Shown piece after piece: positions 1-32,428 of a stretch of DNA of 32,946 bases. The first letter of the stretch is position 1, and every line of letters begins with the position of its first letter. This DNA is from Lachnospiraceae bacterium (lineage in GTDB: Bacteria > Bacillota > Clostridia > Lachnospirales > Lachnospiraceae), in NCBI GenBank assembly GCA_021203465.1, contig JAJQBC010000154.1, positions 1-32,946 of the forward strand, in the 5' to 3' direction. Position numbers and translations under genes: made by a program. The notes beneath the pieces are model-generated. The model was not told the DNA's origin. It was given only the letters and a program-made list of their open reading frames with translations, and searched no databases.

Positions 1-38
1 ACGAGTACGTGAATATTAACGCTGATTATCGCAGCTAG
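1..38 (+). CDS. argJ: ArgJ C-terminus (partial): ornithine acetyltransferase / N-acetylglutamate synthase
   Basis: Only the last 11 codons and a TAG stop are in the window. In the third frame they read EYVNINADYRS. That ending resembles the conserved C-terminus of ArgJ proteins (…YV.IN..YR[ST]), the bifunctional enzyme that moves acetyl groups between N-acetylornithine and glutamate. The call rests on this short tail plus its position directly upstream of argB and argD, the usual argC-argJ-argB-argD order. The gap to argB is unusually long, about 320 bases, because a structured repeat element lies between them. Confidence 0.72.
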   Translation, partial: EYVNINADYRS

Positions 39-54
39 AATAAAAGCAAAATAT

Positions 55-88
55 TCTCCAGATATTTTATTTGTAACTTATCTGGAGA
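55..88 (+). other. 10-bp inverted repeat after argJ
   Basis: Perfect 10-bp arms TCTCCAGATA (55-64) and TATCTGGAGA (79-88) are separated by 14 bases and start 17 bases after the argJ stop. No T-run follows on the + strand, so it is not a standard terminator in that direction. On the - strand the hairpin is followed by a T-rich stretch. It may stabilise or help process the argJ mRNA 3' end. Its function is inferred only. Confidence 0.5.
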
Positions 89-158
89 TATCGTATCTGA
101 CATCTACCAATATAGCAGCTCCATCAGGTGGCTGTATCAGACACTTGCCAGTGAACCA

Positions 159-307
159 GCTCCGCCGTCGGATATATCTGAAAGCGGACCATTGTGCAGC
201 GTCGGCACTTAGCGAAGTCGAGCCGTCAGGCGAAGACTGAGCTTAGTACCGCTACGCCGTACACTGAGCGAGAGCGAGTCCGCGTCAGATATATCCGGCG
301 GCGGAGC
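159..307 (+). repeat. Structured repeat element, copy A (short form), between argJ and argB
   Basis: The outer arms 159-180 and 286-307 pair over 22 bp with one G-U type pair. After a small internal loop, GCGGAC (184-189) pairs with GTCCGC (278-283). The core 203-242 matches copy B (23002-23041) at 38 of 40 positions, and 264-281 matches 23139-23156 at all 18. A small internal stem, CTTAGT (242-247) with ACTGAG (263-268), has a counterpart of different sequence in copy B. The outer-arm sequences also differ between copies, although each pairs within its own copy. No reading frame in it looks coding. It lies in the argJ-argB gap in the direction of transcription, so it would be part of the arg mRNA if the operon is read through. 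Family and role are unknown. Confidence 0.72.
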
Positions 308-339
308 GTCCCCTTAGCCAAAGAGCGTCCCCTTAGCCA
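304..339 (+). repeat. 17-bp tandem repeat just upstream of argB
   Basis: GAGCGTCCCCTTAGCCA occurs at 304-320 and again at 323-339, separated by AA. The first unit overlaps the 3' arm of structured element A. The repeat ends about 10 bases before the AGGAGG ribosome binding site of argB, so it sits in the immediate argB leader. Confidence 0.85.
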
Positions 340-360
340 GAAAAGTAACAGGAGGAACCC

Positions 361-1257
361 ATGAGAGAAGACTACGAAAAATATATGGAGAAGGCAGCCG
401 TCCTGATCGAGGCGCTGCCCTACATCCAGAAGTTCAACCGGAAAATCATCGTCGTCAAGTACGGCGGCAGCGCCATGGTCGACGAAAACCTGAAAAAGAG
501 CGTGATCAGCGATGTAACGCTCTTAAAGCTCGTCGGTTTTAAACCGATCATCGTCCACGGCGGCGGCAAAGAGATCAGCAAGTGGGTCGGCAAAGTCGGC
601 ATGGAACCGCGATTCGTAAATGGCCTGCGTGTGACCGACGAGGCCACGATGGAGATTGCCGAGATGGTTCTGGGACGTGTGAACAAGAGCCTCGTGACGA
701 TGGTGCAGGAGCTTGGCGTCAAAGCGGTCGGTATCAGCGGTAAGGACGGCGGCCTCCTGAAAGTACATAAAAAATATTCCGACGGGCAGGACATCGGCTA
801 TGTCGGGGAGATCGAGGAGGTCAATCCGAAGATCCTTTACGACCTGCTGGAAAAGGACTTTCTCCCCATCGTGTGCCCGATCGGCCTTGACGAGCATTTC
901 GAGACCTACAATATCAACGCTGACGATGCGGCCTGTGCGATCGCACGTTCCGTGAAGGCGAATAAGCTCGCGTTCCTGACAGATATCGAGGGCGTGTATC
1001 GGGATTTTGGTGACAAGGATTCCCTGATTTCCGAGATCTCCGCCAGCGAGGCGAGAGAGCTGATCAGCGGCGGGACGATCGGCGGCGGTATGCTTCCGAA
1101 GCTCGCGAACTGTATCGACGCGATCGAGGCGGGTGTATCCCGCGTCCATATCATAGACGGGCGTATCCCGCACAGCGTACTGATGGAAGTATTTTCAAAC
1201 CGGGGCGTCGGCACGGCGATCCTGGGGGATGGAGAGGAGAGATTTTATCATGAGTAA
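361..1257 (+). CDS. argB: Acetylglutamate kinase
   Basis: ArgB phosphorylates N-acetyl-L-glutamate with ATP, the second committed step of arginine synthesis, in the cytoplasm. The 298-residue protein shows the amino-acid kinase fold signatures: KYGGSAM with Lys33, the HGGGKEI glycine loop near residue 66, VNGLRVT, and GGMLPK near the C-terminus. The N-terminal helix before the kinase core (residues about 8-25) is typical of arginine-inhibited hexameric forms, so feedback inhibition by arginine is likely; this is an inference from the family. The ATG follows a clear AGGAGG at about 350-355. The stop overlaps the start of argD, indicating translational coupling. Confidence 0.97.
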
Positions 1258-11816: not shown

Positions 11817-11846
11817 TTGGATCGCGAACGAAGTTCGCGATATAAT
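11817..11846 (+). promoter_or_regulatory. Promoter with a palindrome filling its spacer, livJ-livH gap
   Basis: TTGGAT (11817-11822) and TATAAT (11841-11846, perfect) are 18 bases apart. The spacer is filled by an inverted repeat, TCGCGAAC (11822-11829) and GTTCGCGA (11833-11840), where a dimeric repressor or activator could sit. Transcription would start near 11852, just before the long hairpin described next. Confidence 0.5.
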
Positions 11847-11851
11847 GTTTA

Positions 11852-12020
11852 CAGTGTCAAAAGTCTGAATCCCCGCCATGCTTGCATGGCAGGGGATGAA
11901 GGACTTTATGACACGCCGGGATATGAGGAAGGAGCGGGGCAGGGACCCCGCGGATTCCGAATAGATTATAGGATTGTGGGCGACGGTGCCTTCGGGTAAG
12001 GCGCCGTCGTCTCTTTTTTT
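11852..12020 (+). ncRNA. Candidate structured RNA between livJ and livH
   Basis: About 169 bases run from a predicted start to a strong terminator. The first domain is a long hairpin: GTGTCA (11854-11859) with TGACAC (11909-11914), AAAGTC (11860-11865) with GACTTT (11902-11907), ATCCCC with GGGGAT, and GCCATGC with GCATGGC capped by a tiny loop. The second is a stem with GCGGGG (11934-11939) and CCCCGC (11946-11951), a GGA/GGA internal loop that could form purine pairs, and GGAA/TTCC below it. The last is the terminator. It could be a free small RNA or a leader that attenuates livHMGF. I do not recognise a known family; a 77-codon open frame across it (11766-11999) has no coding look. Confidence 0.5.
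11981..12020 (+). terminator. Rho-independent terminator upstream of livH
   Basis: A 12-bp stem, 11981-11992 with 11998-12009, contains one G-U type pair, has the loop CGGGT, and is followed by TCTCTTTTTTT. It ends 44 bases before livH, so it separates livJ and the candidate RNA from livHMGF, or acts as an attenuator. Confidence 0.88.
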
Positions 12021-22954: not shown

Positions 22955-23186
22955 CCGCCCGGCGCCCCGCGAGTATCTGTCTCAGGACCATCGTACGGCG
23001 CCGGCACTTGGCGAAGTCGAGCCGTCAGGCGAAGGCTGAGCCTGTGCGGGCAACGAGCCAAGCGCGCATGCTTGCGTACGCATTTGGCGACTGCCGCGAC
23101 AGCGAACGGAAGTGAGCGTGTACCGCTGCGACCGCACGCTGAGCGAGAGCGAGTCCTGAGACAGATACCCGCGGGGCGCCGGGCGG
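22955..23186 (+). repeat. Structured repeat element, copy B (long form), in the glycan locus
   Basis: The outer arms 22955-22988 and 23153-23186 pair over 34 bases with a single A-C mismatch. They share little sequence with the arms of copy A. The core 23002-23041 is 38 of 40 identical to copy A, and 23139-23156 is identical to 264-281. An internal stem, AGCGTG (23115-23120) with CACGCT (23135-23140), occupies the place of a different-sequence stem in copy A. Copy B has about 74 extra bases (23042-23120) forming a nested arm: GCGGGCA with TGCCGC, GCCAA (23057-23061) with TTGGC (23094-23098), and an inner GCG…CGC hairpin. Open frames here on both strands look non-coding. It fills most of the 317-base gap before the next gene, in the same orientation as transcription. 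Confidence 0.75.
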
Positions 23187-32254: not shown

Positions 32255-32264
32255 AATACCGTTG

Positions 32265-32428
32265 AAGATGACTGACCGAAGACAGCAGGTGCTCTTTTGA
32301 GCGTAAGCAGTATACGCCTGCCGAGGAATGCATTCGATTTAAGAATGAATGACGTCCCTCTGTGTCTTACGGCATGGAGGGATTTTTGGTGGTCTCTTTA
32401 TAAAAATCTTAGAAGGAGGAAACCATTC
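32265..32428 (+). promoter_or_regulatory. L10 leader RNA with attenuator
   Basis: The leader contains the conserved run GACCGAAGACAGCAGGTGCTC followed later by CGCCTGCCGAGG. GCAGG (32285-32289) pairs with CCTGC (32317-32321), enclosing a GCTC/GAGC hairpin. This is the typical binding region of the L10-L12 complex. It is followed by a terminator-like hairpin, TCCCTC (32355-32360) with GAGGGA (32377-32382), then TTTTT. The leader lets L10/L12 feed back on rplJ-rplL synthesis. Confidence 0.85.
32355..32387 (+). terminator. Attenuator terminator inside the L10 leader
   Basis: TCCCTC (32355-32360) pairs with GAGGGA (32377-32382) and is followed by TTTTT (32383-32387). The stem may extend inward by a few weak pairs. 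It ends 41 bases before rplJ, as expected for attenuation of the L10 operon. Confidence 0.7.

Follow-up and report, generated by a model that had tools for sequence, protein, structure and literature searches.

A probable REP/MITE-like hairpin repeat with a conserved branched core and sequence-free paired arms in gut Lachnospiraceae

Among the described systems closest to the element reported here are the REP/BIME repeats of the GTAG and CGTC super-families, which are many intergenic hairpins, often arranged in opposite-orientation pairs and carrying a short end motif (PMC3733652). GTAG REPs are mobilised by RAYT, and the linked Y1 gene is flanked by the repeat. The CGTC class is reported in that survey without a dedicated transposase, and its members have stems of 8-9 bp, loops of 4-5 nt and a total size of 20-40 bp (PMC3733652). 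A word search of the survey's main text finds no mention of Firmicutes or clostridia. The hairpins of IS200/IS605 ends and of RAYT-mobilised REPs are about 20-65 nt long, have a guide tetranucleotide at the foot and are described as being recognised as single-stranded DNA (PMC6006769). In Firmicutes, bcr1 and other Bacillus stem-loop repeats are structured, intergenic, about 150-170 nt long and present in tens of copies (PMC2267715). Template-switch repair, as described for RNA stems, explains matched multi-base changes in the two arms and perfect stems (PMC8794818), and template switching is reported both to homogenise the arms and to invert the spacers of inverted repeats (PMC8604942).

We analysed a window of 32,946 nucleotides (the whole stretch of DNA studied, contig JAJQBC010000154.1 of the Lachnospiraceae bacterium assembly GCA_021203465.1), in which two structured elements, copy A and copy B, had been predicted from the letters alone. 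Both were located at their predicted positions (Table 1), and they share a 40-nt core with 38 identical positions and an 18-nt block, CTGAGCGAGAGCGAGTCC, that is the same in both. The two copies are members of a repeat family. In their own genome (G000) blastn gives 27 matches, several of which are parts of one copy, and a covariance model gives 25. The best reading is that the element is a REP/MITE-like hairpin repeat and not a gene-specific regulator. This is based on its mixed orientation to genes, on the fact that no mobile gene was seen to recur nearby and on its absence at the same site in near relatives. On balance we favour the explanation that it is a dispersed, non-coding repeat with a conserved branched core, whose paired arms are free in sequence and are kept by selection together with template switching or recombination. 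Some gut Lachnospiraceae genomes carry tens to hundreds of dispersed copies of this family, which is apparently undescribed. The element is probably mainly selfish.

Table 1. Positions of copies A and B, their parts and the gene downstream of copy A in the window
Feature	Position	Strand	Evidence
Copy A, whole element	159..307	+	fold z -10.4; model R1 match 171-295, E 5.8e-28
Copy A, variable outer 5' arm (P1)	159..181	+	unbroken run of 23 pairs with 285-307, one of them G-T
Copy A, variable outer 3' arm (P1')	285..307	+	pairs with 159-181
Copy A, inner P1 strand GCGGACC, partner 276-283	184..190	+	consensus structure
Copy A, 40-nt conserved core CGGCACTT...GAGC (P2/P3, tandem G-A mismatches)	203..242	+	38/40 identical to copy B
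Copy A, P4 hairpin GC-GAGA-GC with GNRA tetraloop	268..275	+	GNRA in 126-128/129 distinct rows
Copy A, 5' foot CCAG	156..159	+	read from sequence
Copy A, 3' tag CGTCC	307..311	+	CGTC near 3' arm end in 69/188 copies
Copy B, whole element	22955..23186	+	fold z -10.0; blastn pieces 22985-23041, 23113-23167
Extra module inside copy B (approximate limits)	23044..23118	+	missing from G012 ortholog
Gene downstream of copy A, presumably argB	361..1257	+	ORF; orthologs in 15/17 genus genomes searched

The element is about 150-230 nt long, non-coding and palindromic, and its sense strand is defined here as the one with the GNRA loop. In copy A the outer arms are paired as predicted. The stem has 23 pairs, one of them G-T, and not the 22 originally counted; further in, the helix is interrupted by a bulge, which is asymmetric, and then continues with the inner pairs GCGGAC/GTCCGC. 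The outer arms of copy A are also fully paired in four orthologs of differing sequence. In copy B, 33 of the 34 outer-arm positions pair, in agreement with the prediction. Both copies fold much better than their shuffles, with z = -10.4 on the plus strand and -9.3 on the minus strand for A (0/200 shuffles as good on each strand) and z = -10.0 for B (0/200). A further internal stem had been proposed to differ in sequence between the copies and to keep its pairing. Pairing is indeed present (five Watson-Crick pairs and one G-T in A, 6/6 in B), but covariation is not. Across 33 copies the stem proposed in A has zero double changes and a score exactly equal to that of its shuffles, and we rejected it. 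In A, three of its bases (AGT) are part of the conserved CACTTA/TTAGTA helix region, and the 5' side of the stem in B borders on an extra core module.

The extra module (GCAACGAGCC...) is about 75 nt long and occurs in copy B, in two more copies in G000 and in the G011 copy at site L020. Orthologs of copy B, and likewise those of the L020 copy, differ by its presence. The same module is gained or lost between orthologs at 23044-23118 and at L021, L022 and L333. Copy B is flanked by two ORFs that we take to be glycosyltransferase-like.

For the consensus structure we aligned 33 copies collected from eight genomes, with orthologs included and rows that are not independent. RNAalifold gives a consensus structure of 44 pairs, and double changes are seen in 30 of these. 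Pairing is found in 94.0% of cells, compared with 76.1% after shuffling; covariation is 0.493 against 0.160 in shuffles, and none of 500 shuffles reached as high. When the partner is slid by 1-3 columns, pairing falls to 30-42%. P1 is the closing stem, with a fairly conserved inner part (GGACC/GGTCC) and a free outer part. P2 contains CACTTA/TTAGTA; its mismatches are conserved and it has a bulge of two bases. P3 has tandem G-A mismatches and a variable tip. Both helices, which make up the 40-nt core, covary across copies. The short P4 hairpin ends in a tetraloop. Among 130 distinct rows from many genomes this loop is GNRA in 126-128 of the 129 rows with letters, and each of the four bases is found at N. 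The prediction that pairing is kept while the arm sequence changes is supported, as is statistical covariation. It was made from two copies, a small sample at the time; 33 are now aligned, and the arm analysis started from 194 located copies. Neither conserved arm sequence nor missing covariation, the two outcomes that the original prediction had set against itself, occurred.

A known RNA family was ruled out by the absence of Rfam covariance-model matches. Within the window no model reached its gathering score over either element. Positions 100-360 gave no match at E<=10, and seven other copy-bearing loci gave none at E<=1. The suggestion of a possible undescribed element family is supported in so far as the family is absent from Rfam. 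We found no earlier description of the repeat in the open-access literature searched. Elsewhere in the window, Rfam matches above the gathering score are a Clostridiales-1 RNA (11846-12003, +) and a ribosomal protein L10 leader (32258-32396, +).

The arms were analysed in 188 anchored copies of the 194 located (six dropped), which gave 184 distinct arms. Their median length is 33 columns, mostly 30-36 (range 16-46, as a bounded alignment length), and arms of at least 20 columns are present in 186 of the 188 copies. Among 6,230 gapless columns of the distinct arms, 5,458 are Watson-Crick and 772 are not. If one strand were under selection, G-T would be expected far above A-C among these mismatches. 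The raw counts do lean toward the sense strand, with 206 G-T, 118 A-C and 448 others, which include fixed internal-loop positions and frayed ends. Isolated mismatches, each counted once, are nearly strand-symmetric (68 G-T, 48 A-C and 71 others, p = 0.08). In the model alignment we counted 60 G-T, 34 A-C and 134 others in the arms, and 59 G-T, 41 A-C and 107 others in the core helices, where a single column holds 21 of the 41. Thus, the strand bias predicted by selection on a single strand is modest here. With the isolated mismatches nearly symmetric and only the raw counts leaning toward the sense strand, the idea that pairing by itself shows selection on RNA is not supported.

Changes between close orthologs were counted in 31 stricter pairs, which are not phylogenetically independent. 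They comprise 31 compensated doubles (19 transitions and 12 transversions), 86 unmatched singles (40 G-T, 19 A-C and 27 others) and 17 mixed changes; 10 of the 12 transversion doubles come from one site set (L161 with L171, L152 and L142). Since singles outnumber compensated doubles, the constraint on the arms is not tight. In a looser ortholog set (53 of 85 pairs past the filter), which may include paralogs, we counted 46 doubles by transition and 51 by transversion. Copy B differs from its G012 ortholog by double changes at three pairs, and two of these are transversions. Because compensated transversions cannot pass via a G-U step, they support the caveat raised with the original prediction, namely that the arms may correct each other.

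The same caveat is strengthened by inversion of the core. The core is reversed at five sites, which account for 6 of the 70 reciprocal ortholog pairs. Three of these sites were inspected and all are clear, with the core inverted between unmoved arms; the other two may be clustered paralogs. The arms therefore take part in DNA exchange. At L008, G000 and G012 have the same arms and flanks and a reversed core, parts of one arm are left in G011 and G008, and nothing is left in G001 and G014. The core is also reversed at two further sites. The L020 site, upstream of what is presumably tgt, is filled in G000, G011 and G012 and has no match in G008. It is empty in G014 and G001, where only hairpins of 4-5 bp (-4.4 and -4.9 kcal/mol) are found, either as remnants or by chance. 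At L006 the element is present in G000 and G008; the other four genomes have different upstream DNA, and therefore no inference is drawn there. Near relatives thus differ by the presence, absence, core inversion and partial deletion of the element.

From these observations we infer arm-to-arm copying, which the core inversions make likely, combined with moderate selection on the folded single strand. On this reading the folded single-stranded core, as RNA or single-stranded DNA, would be recognised by a trans-acting machine and the element would spread. The arms would need only to pair, with their sequence otherwise free. They would stay matched partly via selection and partly via template switching during replication or arm-arm recombination, and the same exchange between the arms may flip the core. 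In a bolder and less probable version, the repeat would represent a new class of mobile structured element. Its branched core would be RNA- or ssDNA-like, its sequence-free arms would be rewritten in each copy by arm-to-arm DNA exchange, and its core would flip without a site-specific recombinase. In an operon, such a flip could switch which strand of the hairpin is in the transcript.

The arms could instead be matched purely by mutation, through quasipalindrome template switching, with a functionless long stem and selection on the core only. We consider this unlikely. It would account for the core inversions between the arms, the compensated transversions at copy B and the near symmetry of isolated mismatches (68:48), and published accounts of such a process deal with RNA genes (PMC8794818) and with inverted repeats whose spacer is inverted (PMC8604942). 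Against it stand the arms obtained from 188 of the 194 located copies, which span 20 columns or more in 186 cases, the end motifs found just outside the arms in some genomes and the raw mismatch bias of 206:118.

Copy A lies between the stop codon of the upstream gene (36-38), whose last codons resemble argJ and which we take to be that gene, and the presumed argB at 361. Among the 15 argB loci of the genus, four have the element (G000, G008, G011 and G012) and 11 do not; in G001 and G014, argJ and argB nearly abut. The arms differ among the four genomes, strongly in G008. They form 23 paired columns in G000, G011 and G012 and 24 in G008, and every deviation is a G-T (one in G000, none in G011, two each in G012 and G008). 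We found no match to an intrinsic terminator or a sigma-70 promoter in window 1-420. Upstream of copy A, at 56-87, there is a second hairpin, CTCCAGATA/TATCTGGAG, followed by a TATCGTA-CTGACATC-like sequence, and this region is largely kept across the four argJ-argB orthologs. Right after copy A a direct repeat, GAGCGTCCCCTTAGCCA, occupies 304-320 and 323-339; the three orthologs have a single unit.

A cis-acting structured RNA that serves in mRNA stabilisation, processing or attenuation, and that selection on the transcript maintains site by site, would fit the very stable fold, the GNRA loop and tandem G-A, the pairing kept in four genomes at argJ-argB with only G-T deviations, and the raw excess of G-T over A-C. 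Even so, such a role is quite improbable. Copies have no uniform orientation relative to genes, their core is flipped between orthologous sites, most argB loci in the genus lack the element, isolated arm mismatches are nearly strand-symmetric, and window 1-420 has no terminator- or promoter-like match. Under the repeat reading that we prefer, the element in the argJ-argB gap would simply be transcribed as a stable hairpin.

The genomic context was taken from named records, in which a crude ORF caller placed a gene on either side of 67 copies. Copies are mostly between genes, in all orientations, and stand singly or as divergent pairs. Of the 56 outside called ORFs, 18 have both genes on the element's strand, 15 have both on the other strand, 14 are convergent and 9 divergent; the remaining 11 lie inside a called ORF, and those ORFs may be false. 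By eye, no transposase-like or mobile cluster was seen among 755 ORFs near copies. Ten members of the larger clusters, checked against Pfam, are housekeeping or regulatory proteins: an ABC transporter, class II tRNA synthetase, UvrA, a glycosyltransferase, RF3, GatC, two purine enzymes (AIRS and AIRC), a dehydrogenase and a response regulator. We therefore rejected an autonomous element with its own gene, and no mobiliser was found. Linkage to a Y1 (RAYT) transposase was also rejected, as Y1 genes do not track the element. There was no Y1 match in the element-bearing genomes G001, G008, G011, G012, G014, G017 and G018, and no element copy on 12 of the Y1 loci, the ones scanned from element-bearing genomes. 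No recombinase-like neighbour was seen to recur near copies. A recombinase-driven inverton, whose inverted repeats would be one shared recombinase site, does not fit either, the arm sequences being different in each copy.

The original prediction reasoned that transposon ends would be conserved. This needs qualifying, because some genomes have motifs just outside the arms, with CAG/GTAG before the 5' arm and GCGTCC after the 3' arm, most strongly in G005. In that genome 65 copies were found in 40 fetched loci, and 50 of them form 25 divergent pairs, in most of which the two starts lie about 263 bp from each other. When the 25 composites are aligned, the hairpin columns are mostly 90-100% conserved, the spacer about 40-100% and the flanks about 20-80%; the left edge is sharp at GGACG and the right edge is softer after CGTCC. 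As in a MITE, the composite is a discrete unit of about 430 bp with terminal inverted repeats (GGACG...CGTCC), as examined in the 25 composites of G005. These composites, one of which has no right flank, show no target-site duplication, the mean best direct repeat being 2.72 nt against 2.57 nt in shuffled flank pairs. Outside G005 the arms often come after CAG or GTAG and are followed by GCGTCC on the 3' side. Of the 188 copies, 69 have CGTC close to the end of the 3' arm, compared with 199 of 3,760 random 15-mers (5.3%). The tag is unevenly distributed, with 43/64 in G005 and 4/6 in G016, and it is weak in G032 (6/29) and in G000 (3/21). A YAG/GTAG-like 5' foot was found in 93 of 188 copies, a raw count without a control. 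At L072 and L082 (G005) the 3' arm and tag recur once just downstream, resembling a partial duplicate end.

Model R1 matches 15 of 41 genomes, the own genome included. Copy counts are 25 in G000, 20 in G008, 17 in G012, 16 each in G011 and G016, 8 in G014, 3 each in G001 and G009, 2 in G002 and 1 in G010, with zero in six congeners. G005 has at least 85 copies (85/85 scored candidates matched) and G032 at least 150 (150/150 scored candidates matched, from 1,025 first-look candidates). G032 (loci L174-L193) may hold several hundred copies in one genome. In a class-wide search of 391 genomes, with eight candidates scored per genome, nine genomes (own included) have a match at E <= 1e-6, and all nine are of the same family. 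A DNA pattern found at least 114 stretches in named genomes; the 80 listed are, by title, from Lachnospiraceae, Mogibacterium, Oribacterium parvum, Butyrivibrio, Blautia, Eubacterium and others, many of these records being MAGs whose bins are possibly wrong. L244, L252 and L278, from two Eubacterium sp. records and one Lachnospiraceae FE2018 record, have flanks and core in common and adjoin apparent coding sequence; they are possibly one orthologous site. Phage, plasmid or viral cargo was ruled out by searches that gave 0 viral contigs, 0 plasmid records and, among phages, one weak partial match of 42 bases. That the copies are independent trans-acting small RNA genes, many per genome and each with its own promoter, is very improbable: the conserved sense-strand core with its GNRA loop would suit them, and the partly conserved common spacer of the G005 divergent pairs could hold two promoters, but window 1-420 has no promoter-like match and copy number ranges from 0 to at least 150 among relatives, with presence/absence and flipping.

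Covariation is usually taken as the best evidence of RNA function. Here hundreds of natural copies combine very strong covariation with arms that also take part in DNA exchange, and selection on structure and mutational repair might therefore be separable in this family. In addition, the family is apparently a large one, lacks an Rfam entry and occurs in bacteria that are common in gut and rumen; beside core genes, its copies mark places where inversion, deletion and gain of a module have occurred.

The nearest described class is that of the REP/BIME repeats, above all the CGTC super-family (PMC3733652). The element resembles them in its many intergenic hairpins, its opposite-orientation pairs and, for some copies only, a short motif at one end (3' GCGTCC, 5' CAG/GTAG). 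Its arms, with a median of 33 columns, and its branched core exceed the size given for CGTC REPs. Since the REP definitions of stem, loop and size do not fit, we call it REP-/MITE-like in behaviour and a member of neither. A Y1 gene flanked by the repeat, as in GTAG REPs, was not found, since none of the 12 Y1 loci scanned has a copy. With IS200/IS605 ends and RAYT-mobilised REPs (PMC6006769) it shares a hairpin with a short motif at the foot, but those hairpins are smaller and our element has no linked Y1 gene among the loci scanned. It is similar to bcr1 and its Bacillus relatives in size, structure, intergenic position, host phylum and copy number; compared by description, the account of bcr1 (PMC2267715) does not mention variable arms, a conserved branched core or core inversion. 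Finally, template-switch repair of RNA stems would explain the matched arm changes seen here, although it was described as a mutation process in RNA genes (PMC8794818), whereas the element is a repeat family.
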